A DNA stretch of 64,000 bases from Akkermansiaceae bacterium (GTDB taxonomy: Bacteria; Verrucomicrobiota; Verrucomicrobiia; Verrucomicrobiales; Akkermansiaceae), in NCBI GenBank assembly GCA_030725745.1, contig JANRFH010000019.1, forward strand, positions 5,779-69,778. The letters are read 5' to 3'. The notes under the pieces are model-generated. The model worked only from the letters and a program-made list of their open reading frames with translations. It was not told where the DNA came from and did no database searches. Positions 14,379 through 61,685 of the stretch are shown piece after piece. Each line of letters starts with the position of its first letter. The stretch's first letter is position 1. Made by a program: the position numbers and the translations under genes.

Positions 14379-15749
14379 TTATTGGGAAGCTTCGAGGGCG
14401 TTTTGGAGAGCTTCGCGGTAGGTGCGTAGGGTCTCGGTGGAGTTGAGGGCGAGGGCGGAGTCGATGGATTTCAAGGCATCTGCGTAACGGGATTGGGAGA
14501 CTTGGATGCGACAGAGGGCGATGTGGGCTTCGTAGGCGACGGAGGGATCGGCGGCGGCGCGCTCTAGGAGGAGGGCGGCGGCATCGGGGCGGGCGGTGTC
14601 TGCCAGATGCTGGGCGAGGGCGAGGATGGCTTGGCCGTCGGTGGGGTCTTCTTGGGTGAGGGCGGTGAGTTGCTTTTCGCCTTCGGCGGGATTTTCGCTG
14701 GAGGCGATGAGGTAGCTGGCGGTGGCGAGGCGGAGGGGGCGGGTGGGATTTTCCTGTTTGGCTTTTCCCAAGAGGTCTTTGACGAGTGGCCAATCGGCGA
14801 GGGAGGAGACGGTGGTGATGAGGCGGAGGATGGCGGCTTCGGTGGGTGGGTTTTGCTCTGAGAAAAAGGCTGAGGCGATGACGGGTTCGGCGGCGGGTTT
14901 GCGATCGGCGCGGAGGTGAAGCTCGGCGAGGAGGAGGGTGGGATCTGGGGGGAGGTTGCCGAGGCGGTGGGGGAGTTCTAGGGCTTTTGCGGCGAGGTCG
15001 GGCTGGCCGAGGTCGAGGCGGAGATTGGCGAGGAGGACTGCGTAAGATGCCTCGGTGGGGCGGCTGCGGACGACTTCGTCGAGGAGGGCGGCGGCTTCGT
15101 CTTTGGCGTCGAGTACCTGGAGGCACTGGGCGATTCCTGCTTTCCATTCTGCTACATTTGGCTCTGTGACTTGGGCGAGGCGGTAGGACTGGAGTGCGCT
15201 GGCGTATTCTTCGCGAGTGAGGCGGCAGAAGCCGAGCATGCCGTAGGTGCTGCCATCGGAATCGCCGAGGCGGACGGCTTCGGTGAGGTGTTCCAGGGCT
15301 TTCTCCAACTCATCGCTGCGGATGTGGGCGAGGGCGAGGTTCTTGTGCGCGCGCCGGAAGGAGGGGAAGTCTTTGAGAGCGGCTTGGTAAGCTTCTGCGG
15401 CTTGTTCGATTTCTCCGGTCTCGAAGTAGAGGTTGCCGAGGTTGAAGGTGAGGGCGGGGGATTTTGCGGTGAGGGGGCTGGACTTGAGCTTGGCGAGGGC
15501 GGAGTCACGTTTGCCGGTAGCCATGAGAGTCTGGACTTCGACGAGGAGGCCGCGTTGTTCGGTGGTGAGGGTGGGCTCGATGCGTGCTTCGATGCGGTAG
15601 GAGCCATTGAAGGAATTCAAGAAGGCGGGGTCATTCCAGTAGGAGGTAGAAAGGGGGAGGGGCTCGGCGGAGAATGCTAGGGAGTTGGAAAATAAGAGAA
15701 CCGCGAATGGCCGCGAATGGCCGCGAATGAAATTTAATAAATAACACAT
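14379..15749 (-). CDS. Secreted TPR protein of the TtpC-type TonB operon
   Basis: A 456-residue exported protein with at least eight tetratricopeptide-like units (for example ALTFNLGNLYFETGEIEQAAEAYQAALKDFPS and AHKNLALAHIRSDELEKALEHLTEAV). The signal peptide runs to about SFA/FSA (…LAFSA then EPLPL). Part of it (FIRGHSRPFAV) is encoded by three tandem CCGCGAATGG repeats at 15701-15729. In Vibrio-type TonB2 clusters a TPR protein gene likewise follows tonB, so this is probably a periplasmic partner of the TonB complex. It is the last gene of the operon. Confidence 0.85.
   Translation of the reverse strand: MCYLLNFIRGHSRPFAVLLFSNSLAFSAEPLPLSTSYWNDPAFLNSFNGSYRIEARIEPTLTTEQRGLLVEVQTLMATGKRDSALAKLKSSPLTAKSPALTFNLGNLYFETGEIEQAAEAYQAALKDFPSFRRAHKNLALAHIRSDELEKALEHLTEAVRLGDSDGSTYGMLGFCRLTREEYASALQSYRLAQVTEPNVAEWKAGIAQCLQVLDAKDEAAALLDEVVRSRPTEASYAVLLANLRLDLGQPDLAAKALELPHRLGNLPPDPTLLLAELHLRADRKPAAEPVIASAFFSEQNPPTEAAILRLITTVSSLADWPLVKDLLGKAKQENPTRPLRLATASYLIASSENPAEGEKQLTALTQEDPTDGQAILALAQHLADTARPDAAALLLERAAADPSVAYEAHIALCRIQVSQSRYADALKSIDSALALNSTETLRTYREALQNALEASQ
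15701..15729. repeat. Three tandem CCGCGAATGG units inside the TPR signal-peptide coding region
   Basis: CCGCGAATGG occurs at 15701-15710 and 15711-15720, with a third copy ending GA at 15721-15730. The unit belongs to the dispersed CGCGAAT family also seen at 43690-43791 and 52661-52692. Here it lies within the first codons of the TPR gene, so the repeat encodes part of the exported protein's leader. Confidence 0.75.
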
Positions 15750-15773
15750 AACAAATAACTTCTAACGGTTTAC

Positions 15774-16481
15774 CTACTTTTGAATGACGATAGGCCAACG
15801 CATGATGGCTTTGACGGCTTTGCCGTTTTTCGTAGGTGGGGTGAATCTGGCGCTAGATGCGACGCTTCGTGCTGCGGGGATGAGCTCCGGATGGGTGGAT
15901 GAGACGATGTGGCGGATGCTGACGGAGCCGGATGTGGAGAGCTCGACTTCTAGGACGACGGTGCCGCTTTTGATGCCTTGGCGGGCGAGGGCGGAGGGGA
16001 AGCTGGCGGAGCCGTGCCGTAGGAGCCGTGGGGTGCCATCGAGTTCGCTGGCGCTGTAGTGGGATTTTTCAACAGGGGTTGTGCGGTAGTTTTCCTCGTT
16101 TTTGAAAAACTGTTCTCCAGTGTTCCGCAGCTTTTTTGAGGGTTGCTTTGGTGGGCTTGGCAGAGGGGCTGGCGGGAGGTCGCTGAAGAAATTTTCCACT
16201 GGAGCAGTGATGTCCATGGGCACCTGTGCCTGCGGAATAGGAATGCGTGTGGGATCTTGCAGGAAGCTGATGGTGGTAAGTGCAGGAGGTGGAGGAGGCG
16301 TATCTGGCAGAGGCTCATCATTCGGCGGAGGTGGCGGAGGAGGAGCGATGGTGACGGTCTCGATCTCGCGGACTTCCAGATCTGGGACGTTGCTTTCCAC
16401 TGTGATCAGGCGCGCGACTGCAAGGACAGCCAAGAGAATGGCTGAGGCTGCGATGCCGGTGATGGTGGATTTAAAATTCAA
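15774..16481 (-). CDS. tonB: TonB energy transducer
   Basis: The 235-residue protein has one N-terminal transmembrane helix (about 9-27), a long Pro-rich periplasmic spacer (two runs of PPPPPPP-type at 47-70), and a TonB C-terminal domain (about 150-235) with FPSALARQGIKSGTVVLEVELSTSGSV and ARFTPPTKNGKAVKAIMRWPIVI. It should couple the proton motive force sensed by ExbB/ExbD to outer-membrane receptors. Only one tonB is present here and no TonB-dependent receptor gene is nearby. Confidence 0.92.
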   Translation of the reverse strand: MNFKSTITGIAASAILLAVLAVARLITVESNVPDLEVREIETVTIAPPPPPPPNDEPLPDTPPPPPALTTISFLQDPTRIPIPQAQVPMDITAPVENFFSDLPPAPLPSPPKQPSKKLRNTGEQFFKNEENYRTTPVEKSHYSASELDGTPRLLRHGSASFPSALARQGIKSGTVVLEVELSTSGSVSIRHIVSSTHPELIPAARSVASSARFTPPTKNGKAVKAIMRWPIVIQK

Positions 16482-16522
16482 AACTTAACTTTCTAGGAAT
16501 AGCTGGGGTTGTGGGGGAATAT

Positions 16523-16639
16523 TTCAACGCAGAGTCGCTGAGGGCGCAGAGGAAGACTTGGGTTGATTAGATTGGATTATAAAAATTGTGGAGGATAGGC
16601 TCTGCGCTGTCTCTGCGCACTCAGCGACTCTGCGTTGAA
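16523..16639. repeat. MITE-like element with 29-base inverted ends (CGCAGAG family) between exbD and tonB
   Basis: The left arm starts TTCAACGCAGAGTCGCTGAG and ends GGCGCAGAG (16523-16551). The right arm (16611-16639), read on the opposite strand, is the same but for one base (TGCGCAGAG). About 59 bases lie between the arms, including a further CTCTGCGC. A third, partly degenerate arm lies at 17137-17165. There is no coding capacity. The element fills the 210-base tonB/exbD spacer. Confidence 0.8.
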
Positions 16640-16691
16640 AATGGAGTGTGGCAGGAGCCATTCTTGGAAGTTGAGAGTTGAAGGTTGAGAG

Positions 16692-17096
16692 TTACTTTTC
16701 GGTTGCTAGGGAGACGGAGGTGGCTCCGGCTAGTTTTGCGGAATCGATGACGGAGACGGTGGATTGAGTGGGTGTGGAGGCATCGGCGCGGATGATGACG
16801 GGGGTATCTGGAGTTTCACCGATGAGTGCGGCGACGACGGGGCGGACTCCATCCATTCCGATTTCTCGTCCTCCCTGCCAGACGCGGCCTTCGGAGGTGA
16901 TGGCGATAAGGATGGACTGGCGGTCGAGGTCGTCGGAACTGGCGGCGCGGGGTTTTGAGATTTCGATGCCGGTTTCGTTGACGAAGACGGTGGTGACGAT
17001 GAAGAAGATAAGTAGCAGGAATACGACATCGATGAGGGGAGAGATGTCGATGCCTACGGAGGTTTCCGGTGAGGTGGTGTGGCGGAAGCGTTTCAT
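16692..17096 (-). CDS. exbD: ExbD biopolymer transport protein
   Basis: From the ATG at 17096 the protein has 134 residues, the normal ExbD size; an ATG at 17141 would add a non-conserved leader overlapping a repeat. It has a short cytoplasmic N-terminus, one transmembrane helix with the proton-carrying Asp (VGIDISPLIDVVFLLLIFFIVTTVF), and a periplasmic domain ending in the typical IRADAxT…V…DxAKxAGATSVSLAT pattern. It partners with the ExbB encoded just upstream and TonB just downstream. Confidence 0.93.
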   Translation of the reverse strand: MKRFRHTTSPETSVGIDISPLIDVVFLLLIFFIVTTVFVNETGIEISKPRAASSDDLDRQSILIAITSEGRVWQGGREIGMDGVRPVVAALIGETPDTPVIIRADASTPTQSTVSVIDSAKLAGATSVSLATEK

Positions 17097-17102
17097 GGTA
17101 AA

Positions 17103-17165
17103 TGCTGAAAAGCTGAGATGCTGAAATCGAAAAGGGTTCAACGCAGAGTCGCGGAGGTCGCAGAG
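17103..17165. repeat. GCTGA tandem repeat plus single CGCAGAG arm in the exbB/exbD spacer
   Basis: AAGCTGAGATGCTGAAAT at 17110-17127 matches AAGCTGAGAAGCTGAAAT at 53392-53409 in 17 of 18 positions; both lie just upstream of minus-strand genes. It is followed by a CGCAGAG-family arm (17137-17165) starting TTCAACGCAGAGTCGCGGAG. Both pieces are non-coding if exbD starts at 17096. Confidence 0.65.
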
Positions 17166-17198
17166 TGGGCGCAGAGCTAAGGTTGGGAAAATTGAGGT

Positions 17199-17708
17199 TT
17201 AGAGTTTACGACTTAAAGTTTCGTGGAGTTTTTGTTGCATGGCGAGGTGGGTGGTCTCGGCGCGGCGTTTTAGGAGGGCTAGGAGGAAGGCTGCGGGGAT
17301 GGCGATGACTAGGCCTGCTTGTGTGGTGACGAGGGCGCGGGAGATGCCGGTGGAGATGGTGTCGATGGGGGCGCTGTTTCCGGCGGCCATGCCAGAGAAG
17401 GTGATGAGCATTCCGGCTACGGTGCCGAGGAGTCCAAGGAGAGGGGCGGAGGAGATGAGGATGGTGAGGAAGGGGAGGCGACGCTCGACCCATGCCATTT
17501 CATCGAGTTCGTAGGCGGCGTAAGAGCTTTGGGTTTCGCGGGGCGATTGGCCTGAGATGGGGAGTTCGCTGTTATTTACGGCTTTACTAGTAGCAGAAAG
17601 GTGACGCCAGACGCTGAAGAGCGTGGCGTAGATGGCGATGGCCAGGGCGAGGAGGGCATACAGGGTGATGCCGCCTTCGTTTAGCGTGAGTTGGATGGCG
17701 TGGAGCAA
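17199..17708 (-). CDS. exbB: ExbB/TolQ-type proton channel protein (short)
   Basis: A 169-residue MotA/TolQ/ExbB protein. The first helix is near residues 12-34, and the paired channel helices follow at about 77-103 (RRLPFLTILISSAPLLGLLGTVAGMLITFSGMA) and 116-150 (ISRALVTTQAGLVIAIPAAFLLALL). The best start is TTG at 17708, two bases from a TTTAAAC-family repeat. The last residues (LSRKL) are encoded by a second AT-rich repeat. It is the second ExbB of the operon; TtpC at 17914 is the longer one. Confidence 0.9.
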   Translation of the reverse strand: MLHAIQLTLNEGGITLYALLALAIAIYATLFSVWRHLSATSKAVNNSELPISGQSPRETQSSYAAYELDEMAWVERRLPFLTILISSAPLLGLLGTVAGMLITFSGMAAGNSAPIDTISTGISRALVTTQAGLVIAIPAAFLLALLKRRAETTHLAMQQKLHETLSRKL

Positions 17709-17710
17709 AA

Positions 17711-17742
17711 CTTTAAGCTTTAAATTTTAAACCTCAATGAAG
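17711..17742. repeat. TTTAAA/CTTCAATGAAG-type repeat abutting the exbB start
   Basis: On the minus strand the element reads CTTCATTGAGG, then TTTAAAATTTAAAGCTTAAAG, ending two bases before the TTG start. Similar copies sit 6 bases before the starts at 27314 (27321-27354) and 5 before 61601 (61607-61640). Reverse-oriented relatives lie around 17189-17219 and 17885-17912 at gene ends. The repeated placement against start codons is the notable point. Confidence 0.65.
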
Positions 17743-17835
17743 AGGAGGTGGTTTAGGCGGGTTTTGTGTGGGGCTGCGGCGGAGGGGAATGGGTGACGGG
17801 GGTGTTTGCTTGCCCGGTTTGGTTGTGGGTGATTA

Positions 17836-17879
17836 CCCAGGGCGTTGCCCTGGGCTGGTATGGGACGCCCCGTTGGGGC
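17836..17879. repeat. Double hairpin with GTT loops in the ttpC/exbB spacer
   Basis: CCCAGGGC-GTT-GCCCTGGG (17836-17854) is a perfect 8-base stem with a 3-base loop. Thirteen bases later GCCCC-GTT-GGGGC (17867-17879) makes a second stem with the same loop. No T-run follows on either strand, so it is more like a dispersed REP-type element than a terminator, though it could stabilise or attenuate the operon mRNA. Confidence 0.75.
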
Positions 17880-17913
17880 TTAAGATTGAGGTTTAGAATT
17901 TAAGATTTAGGAT

Positions 17914-19266
17914 TTAGTGCTTTGTCCTCAGTCCGTTGACGAAGGAGAGGCCGAGGCGCTCGGTGGTTTGGGTGATGCCTTGGGCGCGGCGGGAGAGGAA
18001 GGCGTGAAGGACTAGGGCGGGGATGGCTACTACTAGTCCGAAGAGGGTGGTGATGAGGGCTTCGGAGATGCCGCCAGCGAGGGGTTTGGGGTCGCCGGAG
18101 CCGAAGAGTGTGATGAGATTGAAGGTGGAGATCATGCCGGAGACGGTGCCGAGGAGGCCGAGGAGTGGGGCGGTGGCGGCCGTGATGGCGATGACGGGAA
18201 GGAGGGTTCCTGCCTTTGCTTGGACGGACATGAGTTGTTCGTAGAGGGTTTCTTCGATGAGGTCGGCGGAGTTTTCTGAGACTGCGACGAGCTTTGCCAT
18301 GACTGGGGCGGCAGGGTGTGCCGGGCCTTTGGCGAGTTGGGTGGCTTTTTCTCTGTCGCCGGTGCGGATGGCGGCGAGGATGGCGTTGACCCACATTTCG
18401 GTGGGCTCGCGGAATTTCGCGAATTGGGAGAGCTTGATAATGCCGAAGGTGAGAGAGAGGAGGGCGAGGAAGATGATTGGCCAGATCCAGAGGCCGCCTT
18501 TGCGGATGAGGTCGAGTGGGCTGCCGCTGAGTTCGTCCATGGCGCGCGCGTTGCCGCCGGTGATATCCAGTGGGAGGGTAGCTTGTTTACCGGAGAGGAG
18601 GGTGGCTATGCCATTGGTGTCGCTGGAGGTGAAATGGGGTGTGCCGCCGGTTTTCGAGAGGGTGACGTCGCCGCCTGTGGATTTGTCTTCGGTGAGGAAA
18701 TAGGAAGCGGGGCCGAGGGCGGCGAAGGTGCCGGGGAGGATGTTGCCATCGGGATCGGCTGCGGTGCCGGGGCTGCTGGAGCCTCCGAGGAGTAATTCTA
18801 GGCGGTCGAGTGATGCGTCGAGTATGCTGAGCCGTGTGGAGAGGGCGAGAGAAGGATCGGCTGGCGAGGTGGCTAGGATTTCTGGTTCGATCTCGAGCTG
18901 TGGTGAGCCGGGGATGGCGAGGGTTGAGGTTTTGAGGGCGTGGTCTTTGAGCAGGCTCGTGGTGTAGGAGGCGTCTTCGGAGCGGGTGGAGAGGTCGGCC
19001 TTGAGTTGGCGGGTTTCTTCGGCGCGGTCTTTGACGGACTGGCGGGCGATGCGGACGAGGCGGCGTTTTTCGAGGAGTTCGGTTTCGATTTTCTGTAAAT
19101 CTGCGGAGATAGCGGGTTTCTCGGCGGCGATGGCTTCGCGGGTTTTTTCTAAAGTGGAAACGGTGGCAGCGAGATCGGCCTGAGCTTTTTTGAGTGCTTC
19201 GGGCACGGAAGTTTCGGCACCGGCGAGGAGAGCGGTGAGTAGGAAGATGAAGGGGAGGCGGTGCAT
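17914..19266 (-). CDS. TtpC-like ExbB with N-terminal periplasmic coiled-coil domain
   Basis: The 450-residue protein starts with a signal peptide (MHRLPFIFLLTALLAGAE), then a coiled-coil region (about 20-100, ALKKAQADLAATVSTLEKTREAIAAEK and following) and a beta-rich domain. The MotA/TolQ/ExbB channel follows (about 258-445, IWPIIFLALLSLTFGII and LLPVIAITAATAPLLGLLGTVSGMISTFNLITLFGSGDPKPLAGGISEALITTLFGLVVAIPALVLHAFLSRR). This is the architecture of Vibrio TtpC, the extra component of TonB2 systems. It follows the DUF3450 gene after 6 bases. Confidence 0.88.
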   Translation of the reverse strand: MHRLPFIFLLTALLAGAETSVPEALKKAQADLAATVSTLEKTREAIAAEKPAISADLQKIETELLEKRRLVRIARQSVKDRAEETRQLKADLSTRSEDASYTTSLLKDHALKTSTLAIPGSPQLEIEPEILATSPADPSLALSTRLSILDASLDRLELLLGGSSSPGTAADPDGNILPGTFAALGPASYFLTEDKSTGGDVTLSKTGGTPHFTSSDTNGIATLLSGKQATLPLDITGGNARAMDELSGSPLDLIRKGGLWIWPIIFLALLSLTFGIIKLSQFAKFREPTEMWVNAILAAIRTGDREKATQLAKGPAHPAAPVMAKLVAVSENSADLIEETLYEQLMSVQAKAGTLLPVIAITAATAPLLGLLGTVSGMISTFNLITLFGSGDPKPLAGGISEALITTLFGLVVAIPALVLHAFLSRRAQGITQTTERLGLSFVNGLRTKH

Positions 19267-19272
19267 GGGTGC

Positions 19273-20004
19273 TCAATCGATTTTCATGGGAAGATCGACC
19301 ATGGAGGGTGTGCTCTTTTTTTCCAAGATGGCGAAGGCTTTGGTAACGGGAGAGTGAAGGTCGGGTTGGGATTCCCACTGCCAGCCTGTTGCTGTGGGTG
19401 TGCCGATGCCTGCGGTATTGTTTTTCCCGGCGTAGAAGGCGCGGGCGAGGCCGAGGTAGAGGACTTCGACTTCGTGGTTGTCGATGATCTCAGTGCTGCG
19501 AGTGAAGCGGCGATTGAATTGCTCGGTCTTGGAGACGAGAGAGAGGATGGAGCGGAGGGCTTCGCGTGGTTCGTCGGCGGGTTTCCATGCTTTGAGCGCG
19601 GAGATTTCTGGCTCGGCTTCGGTGATGAGGGGGGCGGGGAAACGCTCGGCGAGTGAAAGGGTGCGTGGGACATTGCGGGCGACGGCTTCGGAGGCGAGGC
19701 GGCGAGATTCTTTGAGGTCAGCGATTTCCTTTTTCAGGGAGTCGGTGGAATCTGCGTGGTCGGGGGCGGATTGGCCGGATTTTTTTAGTTCTTCGTCGAG
19801 GAGGCTAAGTTCCTTGCGGTGGAGATCGAGAAGGGCGGCCATTTCTTCCTTCTGTGTTTCCCAGTCGAGGCGCTCTTTGGATTCGAGGGTCTGGACATCG
19901 ACGATTTTGGAGATCGTTTCCCGGAGGATGTCGATGGATGGATCATTTTCCTCACCGTGCAGAGTGAACGGGAGAAAGACGGCGGCTATGATAAGGCGTT
20001 GCAT
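19273..20004 (-). CDS. DUF3450 periplasmic coiled-coil protein of the TonB operon
   Basis: From the ATG at 20004 the product is 243 residues with a signal peptide (MQRLIIAAVFLPFTLHG). A coiled coil covers about 25-105 (LDLHRKELSLLDEELKKSG, DSLKKEIADLKESRRLA) and the conserved DUF3450 C-terminal half contains DEPREALRSILSLVSKTEQFNRRFTRSTE and VEVLYLGLARAFYAGKNN…GWQWE. DUF3450 genes precede ttpC in Vibrio and Shewanella TonB2-like clusters. The longer frame to 20076 only adds a non-conserved leader. Confidence 0.88.
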   Translation of the reverse strand: MQRLIIAAVFLPFTLHGEENDPSIDILRETISKIVDVQTLESKERLDWETQKEEMAALLDLHRKELSLLDEELKKSGQSAPDHADSTDSLKKEIADLKESRRLASEAVARNVPRTLSLAERFPAPLITEAEPEISALKAWKPADEPREALRSILSLVSKTEQFNRRFTRSTEIIDNHEVEVLYLGLARAFYAGKNNTAGIGTPTATGWQWESQPDLHSPVTKAFAILEKKSTPSMVDLPMKID

Positions 20005-20075
20005 GTTCCGGCGGGTGGCGGAAGCGTGGAGAAGATTGGTGGAAAAAACCAACGAAAAGCCTTGGTGAGTTTGCA

Positions 20076-20447
20076 TCAGAGCATTTCCACACGGCTGGTG
20101 ATGTCGTTGTAGCGTGCGAGGGGCGAAATATGGGCGGGGATCGTATTGAAAACGAGGAAGACAACGGTGCGTCCGGAGAGGTGGATGGTGCCGATTTCGA
20201 TGCGTGTCCGGGTGATGGACGAGAGCTCGCGGAACATATCGTAGATGTCATCGAGATCCGGTGGATTGACGCCGATGACTGTGCCATCGGGAGCGACGCC
20301 GCAGAGGACGAGGCCGCCGTTTGACCAGCGCATTTCGCAGAACAGTTTGGCCATGCGAAAGTGGTTTGGCACTGTGGATTCGAAGACCGCACTGTGCTCG
20401 TAGGCAGCCATCAATGAGGCGAGTGTGGAGCTGTCATTGATGGTCAT
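20076..20447 (-). CDS. AlbA_2 (Schlafen-type) domain-like small protein
   Basis: The 123-residue sequence resembles the core of AlbA_2 domains: a helix-rich start (MAAYEHSAVFESTVPNHFRMAKLFCEMRWS), the glycine strand NGGLVLCGVAPDGTVIGVNPPDLDDIYDMF, and a strand GRTVVFLVFNTIP. AlbA_2 domains bind nucleic acid and are usually linked to larger partners; here the domain stands alone. It is 71 bases upstream of the DUF3450 start on the same strand, an unexpected neighbour for a TonB system. Family call is by pattern only. Confidence 0.55.
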   Translation of the reverse strand: MTINDSSTLASLMAAYEHSAVFESTVPNHFRMAKLFCEMRWSNGGLVLCGVAPDGTVIGVNPPDLDDIYDMFRELSSITRTRIEIGTIHLSGRTVVFLVFNTIPAHISPLARYNDITSRVEML

Positions 20448-20481
20448 AGGGTTAGTGATTTCTTACATTTCAACAAATTCC

Positions 20482-20973
20482 TCAGGGGTCCGGCAATGGC
20501 AAAGGGTGGGTGTGAGGGGGGGCGTCTGGGTGGGTGGAGAGTGTGCGGTAGTAATCCGCCATGATGCATGCCTGTTGCTCGATGTTGTAGGCTGAGAAGG
20601 GTTTTCCGGGGGTGACTTTGTAGTCATAGCCGCCGAGTGCGCCGTGGAGGAAGAACATGATGACCTTATCTAGGATGAGGTTCGCGCCGTTTTGGTGTTG
20701 GTAAACGTGGGTGAGTTCGTGGACGAAATGGGCGCGGATATCGAGGGAGGCCGTGGAAAAATCCGAGGCATAGGATGATTTGGCGAGGTGTCCTTGTGGG
20801 TGGAGCCAGATGTTTCCGTTCGGTGCCATGGTGACGTTGCGGGGTTGGAAGAAAACGGCTTTTTCGCGGATGACGCGAACGCGCGAGGAGTCGATGGCAT
20901 CCCTGAACATCAGACGGGCGATTTCTTTTTCGCCATCGGCGAGAGGATGGGATCTCCAGTCTGAGGGTGGCAT
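20482..20973 (-). CDS. Small metallopeptidase-like protein with HELTH motif
   Basis: The 163-residue protein has HELTH at 85-89 followed by VYQHQNG, and a later Glu in YNIEQQACIMADYY (Glu132) that could be the third zinc ligand, as in gluzincin-like proteins. A hydrophobic stretch (VIMFFLHGAL) lies between. The pattern resembles DUF4157/Vgr-related metallopeptidase-like proteins. No signal peptide is visible, so it may be cytoplasmic. It lies 40 bases behind the giant CotH gene in operon direction, on the same strand. Confidence 0.65.
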   Translation of the reverse strand: MPPSDWRSHPLADGEKEIARLMFRDAIDSSRVRVIREKAVFFQPRNVTMAPNGNIWLHPQGHLAKSSYASDFSTASLDIRAHFVHELTHVYQHQNGANLILDKVIMFFLHGALGGYDYKVTPGKPFSAYNIEQQACIMADYYRTLSTHPDAPPHTHPLPLPDP

Positions 20974-26387: not shown

Positions 26388-27314
26388 TCAGCTTCTTTCC
26401 GGAAACTTCGCTTTCCATACGCCGAGTGCTTCTCGAATCTCGGAGGCTTCGCGGGTGGGGCTTAGTTCCCAGATGAGGGGACAGTTTTTGGGAAAAAACG
26501 GGAGGATGGAATCGTAATCGAGGGTGCCGGTGAAGGGGGTGCGGTGGTCGCGGGCTGGCCATTGCACATCGTGGACGTGGCCGCCGATGAGGTGCGGGGA
26601 GATGGTTTCGAGCCATTCCATGTGGTCGAGGACTCCGAGGTTGTGCTTGAGTTGGACGTGGCCGAAATCGTGCCAATAGCCGATCCAGGGGTTGTCTTTG
26701 AAATGTTCCTGGAGTTTCACCATCTCGCGCTCGTTGGGCATGTCCTCGAAGCGTGAGCGGGATTCGACGGCGAGTTTGACGCCGTATTCCTCGGCCTTGG
26801 GGGCGAGTTCTTCGAGGGCTTCGATGGCGCGCTGGTAGTAGAGGGGGGCGAGTTTTTCACGCTTCTTGATGAAGGCGATTTTCTTCTTCACGAAGGCAGG
26901 ATCACGCTGCTCTCCAGTGGCTACGAGTTTGGTGAGAGGTTTGGTAAACTTGGCGGTGTTCATGGGTGCGGAGCCCATGTGGAGGACGAGGTATTGCGCC
27001 TTGAACTCGGCGGCAAGCTCCAAGGTTTTGAGCGTCATCTCCATGGCGCGTGTGCGATCGAAGGGGCGGTGCGAGGTGTATTCGTAGGCGTCCGGCGCAT
27101 CGATCATGACCTCCACGGGGGAGGGGAAATAATTATGCACGCCGGAGCAGGTGAACATGCCGGCGGCGTAGGCTTTGCGGATGCCGGGGAGCTTGGCGAT
27201 GGTCATGCCATGCGAGAGTTCGATGTTCTGGAAACCCAGCTCCACGATCTCGGTGATCATTTCCTCGCCGCAGGTGTGGCGGCTGTTATTCCAGCAGGAC
27301 GAGAAAGCAAGCAT
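26388..27314 (-). CDS. Sugar phosphate isomerase/epimerase (xylose isomerase-like TIM barrel)
   Basis: A 308-residue TIM-barrel of the AP-endonuclease-2/xylose-isomerase group. Visible are the start FSSCWNNSRHTCGEEMITEIVELGFQNIELSHG, the metal-site strands VLHMGSAP, LAVESRSRFE, IGYWHDFGHVQ and GGHVHDV, and the closing FFPKNCPLIWELSPTREASEI. These enzymes isomerise or epimerise sugars or sugar acids with a divalent metal; the substrate is not known. A TTTAAAC-family repeat ends 6 bases upstream of its ATG. Confidence 0.85.
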   Translation of the reverse strand: MLAFSSCWNNSRHTCGEEMITEIVELGFQNIELSHGMTIAKLPGIRKAYAAGMFTCSGVHNYFPSPVEVMIDAPDAYEYTSHRPFDRTRAMEMTLKTLELAAEFKAQYLVLHMGSAPMNTAKFTKPLTKLVATGEQRDPAFVKKKIAFIKKREKLAPLYYQRAIEALEELAPKAEEYGVKLAVESRSRFEDMPNEREMVKLQEHFKDNPWIGYWHDFGHVQLKHNLGVLDHMEWLETISPHLIGGHVHDVQWPARDHRTPFTGTLDYDSILPFFPKNCPLIWELSPTREASEIREALGVWKAKFPERS

Positions 27315-27320
27315 GTCCCA

Positions 27321-27354
27321 AACCTTAAGTTTTAAACTTTAAACTTCAATGAAG
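27321..27354. repeat. TTTAAA/CTTCAATGAAG-type repeat upstream of the epimerase gene
   Basis: On the minus strand it reads CTTCATTGAAGTTTAAAG, then TTTAAAACTTAAGGTT, six bases before the ATG at 27314. It shares CTTCATTGAAG-TTTAAAGTTTAAAA with the copy before hisF (61607-61640). The CTTCATTGAAG end is itself nearly palindromic. Confidence 0.65.
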
Positions 27355-27375
27355 ACTGGGGCTGGAGTGTCTTTT

Positions 27376-52828: not shown

Positions 52829-53365
52829 TCAGATGAGGCCTTTGCGTTTGAAATCGAAGGCGTTGATCTGATGGGAGCGGAGGATCATCTCGAAGGAGAA
52901 TTTGAGGATGGATACCTCCCACGTGTCGTCGACTCCCTCGATGATAGCTCGGGAGGGATTCCCTGTGCGGCGTATGTCCTCTAGGACTCGCTCGCGCACG
53001 GATTCGATGGAGTCGTGGATGAGTTCTTCGTTCACGGCACCGCGCTTGAAGCGGAAGCCGTATTGGAGGAAGGCGAGATCCTGTCCCTGTTGCTTGAGCT
53101 TATCGACCATGGCGTCGAAGCGTGCGCGAGCGGATTCATCGAAGCCTTCGAGCTCAATGTCCCGGTATGGCTCTGGGCGAAGGATGCGTGGCTTCATGGC
53201 CTCGACCTTGCCGGTACGGATGCGAACTTTCCCGACCTGATCCATGGGCTCGCTGAGGAGTTGAAATTCAAAGCGCGTTTCGCCAAAGGTCTGGATGCGG
53301 TGATCCGGTTCGTGGAGGACACGTGTGGTCTCCATGGCGTATTGGATGTCGTCTTGGCTGGGCAC
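52829..53365 (-). CDS. Conserved-looking protein of unknown function
   Basis: The 178-residue product (GTG at 53365; ATG 53335 is an alternative) has no signal or membrane helix. It starts with beta segments (FGETRFEFQLLSEPMDQVGKVRIRTGKVEAMKPRILRPEP) and ends in helices (LIHDSIESVRERVLEDIRRTGNPSRAIIEGVDDTWEVSILKFSFEMILRSH). Composition and codon pattern are those of a real gene. Verrucomicrobial relatives are likely, but I cannot name a family. A GCTGA-type repeat lies just upstream. Confidence 0.65.
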   Translation of the reverse strand: MPSQDDIQYAMETTRVLHEPDHRIQTFGETRFEFQLLSEPMDQVGKVRIRTGKVEAMKPRILRPEPYRDIELEGFDESARARFDAMVDKLKQQGQDLAFLQYGFRFKRGAVNEELIHDSIESVRERVLEDIRRTGNPSRAIIEGVDDTWEVSILKFSFEMILRSHQINAFDFKRKGLI

Positions 53366-60830: not shown

Positions 60831-61601
60831 CTATCGCTTGAAGCTGGGGCGGACGGGGACGCCGTGTTTGGCGAAGTGGTCTTTGGCTTCTCCGACGGTG
60901 TGCATGCCGAAGTGGAAGATGGAGGCGGCGAGGACGGCGTCGGCTTTGCCCTTTTCCAATACCTCAACCATGTGATCGAGGTTCCCTGCTCCGCCGGAGG
61001 CGATGACGGGGATGCCGATGGCGGAGGAAATGGCGGCGGTGAGTTCGCAATCGTAACCGGCTTGAGTGCCGTCTGAGTCCATGGAGGTGAGGAGGATTTC
61101 GCCTGCGCCGCGGCGCCAGACTTCTTTTGCCCACTCGACGGCATCGAGATTTACGGGGGTGCGGCCGCCGTGGGTGTAGACGCCCCATTTTCCTGGAGCT
61201 TCACGTTTCGCATCGATGGCGACGACAATGCACTGGCTGCCAAAGGCTTTGGCTCCTTCATCGACGAGGCCGGGATTGGTGACGGCGGAGGTGTTGATGC
61301 CGACCTTGTCTGCGCCGGCTTGGAGCATGGTGTGCATGTTGTCCACGGAGCGGATGCCGCCGCCGACGGTGAGAGGGATGAAGCATTTTTCCGCAGTGCG
61401 GCGGACAACGTCGACCATGGTGTCGCGGGCGTCGGAGGAGGCGGTGATGTCGAGGAAAACGAGTTCGTCGGCTTCCTGCTCGTTGTAGGCGATGGCACAT
61501 TCGACGGGGTCTCCGGCGTCGATAAGATCGACGAAGTTGACGCCTTTGACGACGCGGCCGTTGGTGACGTCGAGGCAGGGGATGATTCGTTTGGCGAGCA
61601 C
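60831..61601 (-). CDS. hisF: Imidazole glycerol phosphate synthase cyclase subunit
   Basis: The 256-residue TIM-barrel makes imidazole glycerol phosphate and AICAR in histidine synthesis with ammonia supplied by HisH. The catalytic Asp residues are Asp11 ([15 protein letters not shown]) and Asp130 ([11 protein letters not shown]); phosphate loops VGGGIRSVD and [10 protein letters not shown] are also seen. Start is GTG at 61601. No other his gene is nearby. A TTTAAAC-family repeat ends 5 bases before the start. Confidence 0.96.
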
Positions 61602-61606
61602 GCTGA

Positions 61607-61640
61607 AACTTCAAATTTTAAACTTTAAACTTCAATGAAG
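61607..61640. repeat. TTTAAA/CTTCAATGAAG-type repeat upstream of hisF
   Basis: On the minus strand: CTTCATTGAAGTTTAAAG then TTTAAAATTTGAAGTT, five bases before the GTG. The first 25 bases are identical to the copy at 27321-27354 apart from the 3' few bases. Confidence 0.65.
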
Positions 61641-61685
61641 AAAGGGAGGGGCGGGATGAAAGATGAAGGCGGGGCGCTAGGAGGC

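Follow-up and report, generated by a model that had tools for sequence, protein, structure and literature searches.

Heptad repeats at gene starts and stops in the spacers of a TtpC-type TonB operon of an Akkermansiaceae bacterium

We examined a stretch of 64,000 nucleotides (nt) from the 3.42-Mb genome of an Akkermansiaceae bacterium (the window, to which all plain coordinates refer). It carries a TonB operon on the minus strand at 14379-20076, and a dispersed repeat built of 7-nt units, the heptad arm, lies in the spacers of this operon. A profile search matched six consecutive genes to the Pfam families DUF3450, MotA_ExbB, MotA_ExbB, ExbD, TonB_C and TPR:

19273..20076, minus strand: DUF3450 gene (ttpB-like), first in the operon; PF11932, E 3e-17; start at 20004 or 20076, of which the gene caller took 20004
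17914..19266, minus strand: ttpC-like gene, 450 amino acids; PF01618, E 2e-27 at residues 323-436, a C-terminal MotA/TolQ/ExbB domain
17199..17708, minus strand: exbB, TTG start, compared with the starts in relatives; PF01618, E 3e-24
16692..17096, minus strand: exbD; PF02472, E 5e-28
15774..16481, minus strand: tonB, TTG start; PF03544, E 8e-10
14379..15749, minus strand: TPR gene, last in the operon, ttpD-like by position; TPR_16, E 4e-19

The middle genes of a TonB2 operon run TtpC (ExbB-like), ExbB, ExbD and TonB. The operon is an ordinary TonB2/TtpC-type operon, of the iron-uptake kind: its gene order is that of such systems, and the order is identical in relatives. The order DUF3450-TtpC-ExbB-ExbD-TonB-TPR had been proposed in a sequence-only reading of the window by a model, and the six Pfam matches agree with it. 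The closest named relative found with TtpC, at 62% identity, is a metagenome assembly of a Luteolibacter sp. (L049); the organism is therefore a verrucomicrobium, probably close to Luteolibacter. Elsewhere, the genome has another, distant operon of the order TtpC-ExbB-ExbD-TonB-TPR (L066, G000:C23:15716-17050); its TtpC is ~29% identical, and the search found no DUF3450 match there.

The spacers of the operon are occupied by repeats. In operon orientation, the ttpC-exbB spacer runs from the ttpC stop codon through a left heptad arm (TAAATCTTAAATTCTAAACCTCAAT), a double GTT-loop hairpin and unrelated sequence to a right heptad arm (CCTCTTCATTGAGGTTTAAAATTTAAAGCTTAAAGTT) and the exbB TTG. The left and right arms are inverted copies of each other. 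The repeats of the operon, and two further arms in the window, are:

17885..17916, minus strand: left heptad arm, from the ttpC stop codon (TAAATCCTAAATCTTAAATTCTAAACCTCAAT); base-paired to the right arm in the RNA structure prediction
17836..17880, minus strand: double GTT-loop hairpin of the ttpC-exbB spacer; hairpins 17836-17854 and 17867-17880, both in the minimum-energy fold
17706..17751, minus strand: right heptad arm (CCTCTTCATTGAGG followed by TTTAAAG-type units), ending in the exbB TTG start
17188..17221, minus strand: left heptad arm across the end and stop codon of exbB, the stop lying 23 nt inside the arm
17137..17177, minus strand: CGCAGAG element of the exbB-exbD spacer
17100..17129, minus strand: GCTGA tandem of 7-8 nt units, immediately 5' of the exbD start; a similar leader precedes the window gene 52829-53365
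16665..16691, minus strand: heptad units (CTCTCAACCTTCAACTCTCAA) immediately 3' of the exbD stop; from the list of downstream 7-nt periods
16522..16640, minus strand: CGCAGAG inverted pair with 30-nt arms at 16522-16551 and 16611-16640, 97% complementary; fold z -9.3
16470..16495, minus strand: heptad-like units leading into the tonB TTG start
15750..15773, minus strand: GTTAGAA/GTTATTT heptads filling the whole 24-nt tonB-TPR spacer up to the start codon; similar spacer in G005, G022 and G008
15702..15728, minus strand: CGCGAAT units in the first codons of the TPR gene, encoding residues near the start of the TPR protein
27320..27355, minus strand: further right heptad arm, 5 nt 5' of the start of gene 26388-27314
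61606..61641, minus strand: further right heptad arm, 4 nt 5' of the GTG start of the histidine biosynthesis gene 60831-61601

All five repeats that the sequence-only reading had named (GTT-loop hairpin, TTTAAAC, GCTGA, CGCAGAG and CGCGAAT) are present in the region. It had placed them in the four spacers from ttpC to the TPR gene: all four do hold repeats, but the CGCGAAT units are inside the start of the TPR gene, not in a spacer. Some repeats code for protein ends, as it had said, since the exbB stop falls within a TTTAAAC arm. Its remark that operon genes overlap tightly elsewhere was not confirmed: among the 37 other co-directional junctions that our own gene caller gives for the window, a single one overlaps, and the gaps have a median of 77 nt. 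Three of the 5 operon junctions showed a 7-nt period (10 or more of 14 positions matching at lag 7 within a 40-mer), versus 3 of the 37 other junctions of the window (post hoc Fisher p 0.015). In the predicted RNA fold, the entire 205-nt ttpC-exbB spacer is closed (minimum -53.7 kcal/mol, z -4.0), with stop and start codons both near the foot of a single stem. The predicted fold of the exbD-tonB spacer (z -9.3) is chiefly due to the CGCAGAG inverted pair.

To place these repeats in the genome, we used a 455-kb sample consisting of the window and 20 stretches selected for holding arms, a choice that inflates densities and leaves placement tests unaffected. The first GTT-loop hairpin has one more copy in this sample (L152:5700); about 30 genomic matches first taken for the GTT hairpin were actually right heptad arms. 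The CGCGAAT units have nine copies, one flagged as intragenic (reversed control, 1). At 3 mismatches, CGCAGAG gave 23 copies, 14 of them intragenic (reversed control, 12); these counts are near background, and we therefore make no claim on its placement beyond the window. Both CGCAGAG and the GTT hairpin are additional intergenic repeats that occupy these spacers. No Rfam match at gathering score was found in the window.

The TTTAAAC element of the sequence-only reading turned out to be more than a feature of the operon: it recurs throughout the genome and is positioned exactly at start and stop codons. The element measures ~38 nt and consists of a CTCTTCC-like head and 3-4 units of the TTTAAAG type. 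The pattern TTGARGTTTAAARTTTAAARYTTAAARTTT, with up to 3 mismatches, was found 116 times in the genome (5 times when reversed), and a pattern with a CTTCM head 74 times (0 reversed). Leaders formed by arms are 76% AT, versus 50%. Among 59 relatives we counted 78 arms in G022, 58 in G017, 52 in G015, 40 in G005, 33 in G008, 20 in G047 and 5 in G004. Apart from G053, the rest had 0 or 1 arm each. In G053 (L128, L136) the 28 matches against 27 for the reversed control represent an unrelated repeat. The longer pattern with the head matched in 4 of 239 sampled genomes of the order, all of this genus (1 of 48 genera); the matching rows listed give 74 copies in this genome, 41 in G267, and one each in G004 and G207. 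By lineage we mean the same-genus genomes with many copies, a definition made without a tree. An exact match to the element was not found in viral contigs. A literature search, whose coverage excludes most subscription papers, gave no description of such an element in Verrucomicrobia among the results listed.

We then measured where the arms lie relative to genes. Gene calling in the sample relied on a codon model with two classes (445 calls, 87% coding); starts came from this caller of our own, unvalidated and chosen blind to the arms, and low-scoring genes shorter than 200 nt were removed before placement and later counts. With up to 4 mismatches, 66 arms were found (reversed control, 12), of which 44 face a gene start, 22 face a gene stop, and 4 are intragenic. 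The end lies between -1 and +6 nt of the start codon for 31 of 44 start-type arms, and between -23 and +1 nt of the stop codon for 19 of 22 stop-type arms. We compared the 65 arms that have two flanking genes with a null that placed them uniformly within the same spaces and oriented them at random: 52 of the 3' ends lay within -25 to +8 nt of the facing gene, versus 18.7 expected (standard deviation 3.3, maximum 29 in 2000). The 5' end of the same arms lay in this interval in 6 cases only. In spaces of at least 80 nt, 32 of 45 arms had their 3' end in the interval, versus 8.2 expected (standard deviation 2.6, maximum 17). Stop codons are often inside arms, at offsets of -1, -2, -9 and -23. This is expected: 7 is not a multiple of 3, so TTTAAA units give TAA in all three frames, and a copy therefore also closes an upstream reading frame.

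Left and right arms often occur together. Co-directional junctions hold 15 of the 19 left arms, and 11 of these 15 share the junction with a right arm; many other copies are single. Genome-wide, and among the matches listed, at least 9 pairs of opposite orientation stand 50-86 nt apart, start to start, all with their 3' ends outward. Predicted accessibility was lower at starts with an upstream left arm than at arm starts without one (0.41, n=10, versus 0.49, n=30; p 0.02).

The genes led by arms are diverse. We scanned 30 of 40 against Pfam, and 26 matched at E 1e-8; they are unrelated and mostly housekeeping, with RuvB, the FUR family, RsmB/F, a NuoK-type protein, SRP54, GatB, phosphofructokinase, ClpX, anthranilate synthase I and a radical-SAM protein that is putatively LipA among them. 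A Shine-Dalgarno signal was not detected: its 4-mers occurred at background frequency, in 40 of 361 starts at the expected place and 40 of 361 at a control place, and likewise at 4 of 40 and 4 of 40 arm starts.

We compared the operon junctions with those of relatives. The ttpC-exbB spacer measures 205, 128, 131 and 138 nt in this genome (G000), G004, G015 and G017, and exbB starts with TTG in all four; the G004 spacer has no clear TTTAAAG arm. In G005, G022, G008 and L049 the two genes overlap by ATGA, and in G033 a 7-nt gap separates them; exbB starts with ATG in all five (starts in relatives were placed by homology). The exbB-exbD gap is 102 nt here and 88 nt in G015. It ranges from -4 to 11 nt in L049, G033 and the remaining same-genus genomes (a second comparison placed the G033 start differently) and measures 16-140 nt in three more distant genomes. 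Between exbD and tonB, five genomes have 121-210 nt, whereas G005 has 3 nt and G015 has 11 nt (TAAACTTTAAATTTTTG). The tonB start is TTG in all seven same-genus genomes compared and ATG in L049 and G033, and because of this distribution the short TTG junctions may be remnants. Altogether, of the three junctions between ttpC and tonB, one or two have a long spacer in G004, G015, G022, G008 and G017, the others being tight; in G005 all three are tight and a heptad spacer occurs only before the TPR gene; in L049 and G033 all three are tight (-4 to 7 nt). The sequence-only reading would have taken the repeats for incidental had these spacers been repeat-free and equally spaced in relatives; they are neither.

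The ATGA overlaps of G005, G022, G008 and L049 are of the kind described for termination-reinitiation, unlike the junction of this genome, where 205 nt stand in place of the overlap. According to the available part of the source on this process (PMC10666635), termination-reinitiation is almost wholly abolished at distances of ~20 nt. Because of this, a spacer of 205 nt should force separate initiation of exbB.

The element was also retained at many orthologous starts outside the operon (lipA, rsmB, nuoJ and nuoK are names assigned from the Pfam family and the look of the sequence). The nuoJ-nuoK spacers measured 39, 38, 38, 31, 38, 26 and 20 nt, versus 3 nt in G004; another junction measured 6 nt in G004 versus 27-111 nt elsewhere. 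G005, G017, G015 and G047 have the leader in front of the rsmB-like gene, and G004 has a weak one. It is retained even though the gene upstream of it here is on another contig or ~400 kb off in G004, G047 and G005; that gene also lies elsewhere in G008. The lipA-like leader is identical at 35, 36 and 37 of 38 positions in G022, G005 and G008, while four-fold sites are 64-73% identical.

The 7-nt period is more general than the TTTAAAG element. Lag 7 passed the threshold in 59 of 406 40-mers upstream of starts (3, 3, 13, 6 and 3 for lags 5, 6, 8, 9 and 10), in 41 of 409 downstream of stops (4, 9, 12, 6 and 4 for the same lags, so that the other lags range over 3-13 in both non-coding sets), and in 0 of 350 coding 40-mers. 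Other heptad units included GTTGAAA, CTGAAAA, CACTGAT, GTTCAAC and TTTCAGC, several of them behind the same (A)GTCTTCC/CTCTTCC head. A count made without gene calls gave 54 tracts at lag 7 and 0-12 at other lags in the arm-selected stretches. Single 20-kb stretches of G017 and G022 had one lag-7 tract each; stretches of G004, G009, G018 and other families showed no lag-7 excess, with 0 or 1 tract each. Another repeat (ACCTGTGAGCATAGCGAACC...CATAGCCATCAGGCAA) lies within the heptad leaders of two different genes (L205 in G005, L210 in G008); heptads seem to attract other repeats.

The period was kept between orthologs while the units changed. Across 66 orthologous starts of 16 genes, which are non-independent pairs, none chosen by hand, the lag-7 score was 9.82. 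Simulated heptads that diverged to the same identity by independent substitutions scored 7.51 (standard deviation 0.21, maximum 8.15 of 400). At a threshold of 10, 44 of the 66 passed at lag 7, 4 at lag 6 and 5 at lag 8. Thus, units of the same leader change in concert (TTTAAAG to TTTGAAA at L153:9722 is an example). Selection for the period and slippage explain such concerted change alike.

Taken together, these results show a dispersed, lineage-specific gene-boundary element in the spacers and suggest that it acts as a translation-initiation leader and also supplies stop codons, a reading whose chances we judge to be about even. We infer the leader role because the element occupies the ~38 nt directly preceding a gene, and the genome lacks a Shine-Dalgarno signal; it is plausible given that heptads lie directly 5' of starts and are retained at orthologs. 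Repeated 7-mers would offer several sites to an RNA-binding protein with an oligonucleotide-binding (OB) fold: ribosomal protein S1 and cold-shock proteins are candidates. An element landing in an ATGA overlap would give the downstream gene its own start (exbB TTG: ...GTTT+TG) and break strict stop-start coupling. A reverse copy at the upstream stop could then fold with the forward copy into a hairpin joining stop and start, and such a hairpin could make the downstream start depend on upstream translation again. ExbB, ExbD, TonB and the TPR protein would be started separately, not in lockstep. If the leader role is true, the element is an identifiable and testable sequence device for translation start in a lineage without a Shine-Dalgarno signal, and the orthologous overlaps are ready comparisons of coupled and uncoupled subunit genes.

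Several observations weigh against a leader. Four of the 19 left arms lie at convergent gene ends, where a translation leader makes no sense. Accessibility at arm starts without a left arm did not differ from that of other starts (0.49 versus 0.51, p 0.68; 80 sampled of 361). Locus-specific pairing of arms, and with it a selected hairpin, was not supported: the duplex energy of arms from the same junction was not significantly better than that of swapped arms (-23.3 versus -20.8, p 0.10, n=11, including two pairs without TTTAAAG arms). The downstream genes share no evident common function among the 30 of 40 scanned. TonB starts with TTG in G005 and G015 too, despite spacers of 3 and 11 nt. The rsmB-like leader has no clear period in G008, and the lipA-like leader is identical at only 24-26 of 38 positions in G004, G047 and G017. 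In other genomes, 13 of 24 copies examined end within -25 to +8 nt of a start; of the remaining 11, four end 9-18 nt 5' of a start and three are in genomes that lack the element (G001, G007, G037). For 4 of the 24, the facing gene is orthologous to a member of the set of 40 arm-led genes. The unselected window has few tracts (4 at lag 7 versus 2 at lags 6 and 9, and 0-2 at other lags). Finally, recurrence of unrelated heptads at the same genes was not supported: they occurred in 5 of 22 cases at orthologs of heptad genes versus 4 of 23 at other genes, although several of these controls are TonB-operon starts with sub-threshold heptads.

The arms may instead be a selfish short mobile repeat, of the miniature inverted-repeat transposable element (MITE) or repetitive extragenic palindromic (REP) kind, with no host function: it would survive at gene boundaries because harm is least there, and copies would be tolerated because of their own stop codons and an end able to leave a start codon. 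This is a real possibility, though we think it more probably wrong than right. In its favour, copies are dispersed in one lineage, close pairs of opposite orientation have outward 3' ends, spacers are present or absent at orthologous junctions (those of the operon and the two short G004 junctions), and a TGA flanking the arms at L164 resembles a target duplication. The convergent-end copies, the missing accessibility difference and two weak matches in Y1-transposase genes leave room for it. It accounts less well for the retention of copies at the same starts in several relatives and for their exact abutment to genes even in roomy spacers. Terminal inverted repeats as in a MITE would correspond to the left arms paired with a right arm, 11 of 15 at co-directional junctions, and many copies are single; the TGA duplication was not general among the paired copies examined. 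We also rejected a Y1 transposase as the mobiliser: 0 of 10 Y1-transposase loci were flanked by a copy within up to 1.5 kb per side, Y1_Tnp being the sole transposase family searched. Nor did viral contigs contain an exact match, as noted above. Two paralogous Y1-transposase-like genes hold an arm-like stretch (4 mismatches) at a similar intragenic place (L043:2240-2269, L044:894-923), possibly by chance. If the arms are mobile, they are an unusually precise repeat, landing on and rewriting stop and start codons.

A further-reaching version of the leader proposal is that heptad repetition itself, not a fixed sequence, drives starts without a Shine-Dalgarno signal through a periodic RNA-binding protein reading interchangeable heptads, and that the spread of heptads repeatedly uncoupled overlapping genes. 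We regard this combination as rather unlikely.

Replication slippage could also produce the period: intergenic DNA of the lineage would gain 7-nt tandem duplications that further slippage homogenises, the period would be a property of the polymerase, and placement would reflect tolerance of indels. Several heptad sequences are unrelated, ortholog gaps differ by 7 (38 and 31 nt for nuoJ-nuoK; 59 and 66 nt for a CACTGAT spacer), and a published heptanucleotide excess was ascribed to slippage (Mrazek 2007, as cited in the available text of PMC4679880). Yet the fixed head and about three units of the TTTAAAG element imply that it spread as a whole, its orientation is strict, and it is confined to a few genomes. 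We consider slippage quite improbable.

We rejected tuning specific to the TonB operon, in which the repeats would set subunit ratios; this is very unlikely. Repeats in 4 of 4 spacers from ttpC to the TPR gene, the strong predicted folds (z -4.0 and -9.3) and the post hoc heptad excess over the rest of the window (p 0.015) point towards it, but the same element precedes unrelated genes genome-wide and the junctions it occupies vary among relatives. The sequence-only reading had suggested that the repeats tune subunit levels: an effect on translation is plausible from placement and retention, whereas the operon-specific part falls away, as the element precedes unrelated genes too. Tuning of the TonB operon by the general element is possible. 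A role as internal promoters, terminators or sites of RNA processing can hardly be right: AT-rich blocks and hairpins do lie between genes of one operon, but since the element reaches the start codon, a promoter and the leader after it would have little space, and Rfam gave no match at gathering score in the window.

The closest precedent for the heptad element is the TAACTGA heptamer direct repeats of Beggiatoaceae, found also in some Cyanobacteria and Bacteroidetes (MacGregor 2015, PMC4679880; the comparison is with the accessible portion of that paper). Both are 7-nt direct repeats, mostly forward, ending a few nt from a start codon; both contain stops in all three frames and sometimes overlap the end of the upstream gene; both have few recognisable ribosome-binding sites, no functional pattern downstream, 7-nt indels between relatives and a scattered presence. 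MacGregor named an S1- or Csp-like protein as candidate reader. The host here belongs to another phylum, and the units, by inspection of the listed copies, are of the TTTAAAG/TTTAAAA type with a fixed CTCTTCC head. A third of the copies here (22/66) are reversed at stop codons, often paired with a forward copy, whereas 12 of 170 TAACTGA sets point toward a stop codon. Unit sequence varies between orthologs here while the period stays, and relatives have ATGA overlaps at an occupied junction. Whether the arms are leaders or mobile repeats, these sparsely studied heptamer repeats are extended to Verrucomicrobiota, and two features go beyond the TAACTGA account as available: reverse copies at stop codons are frequently paired with forward copies at the next start, and the period is kept while units change between orthologs.

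REP/REPIN elements and their RAYT transposases (REP-associated tyrosine transposases) form GTAG and CGTC families, with the verrucomicrobium O. terrae rich in them (PMC3733652, available part). They too are dispersed intergenic repeats; by inspection, the heptad arm is not palindromic, carries no GTAG or CGTC tag, and adjoins start codons. Unlike in REP/RAYT systems, none of the 10 Y1_Tnp loci is flanked by the repeat. As for the operon, the consulted portion of the source on Vibrio vulnificus TonB2 (PMC6957404) describes six genes, with a DUF3450 gene (ttpB2) immediately before ttpC2 and ttpD2 last, after tonB2. The operon described here likewise has six genes, a DUF3450 gene first before ttpC and an extra gene after tonB; it differs in being verrucomicrobial and in the repeats of its spacers, and its TPR gene is likened to ttpD2 by position alone.

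Some minor features remain. Two further genes within 14379-20973, beyond the operon, had no Pfam match at E 0.001. In the window and L145-L164, genes split into C-ending and G-ending codon classes, and GC skew reaches 0.38 in the window, a strong strand asymmetry. A separate hairpin repeat, GGAGCGCGGGTTTTCAACCCGC (L154:13166, L150:2511, L163:11328), has 6 copies in the 455-kb sample, none intragenic (reversed control, 0). CAGC-type units of 7-8 nt (TTTCAGCTTCTCAGC) occur at gene ends, upstream of the window gene 52829-53365 and downstream of L158:10973-11176; they are of the same kind as the GCTGA tandem that precedes exbD.

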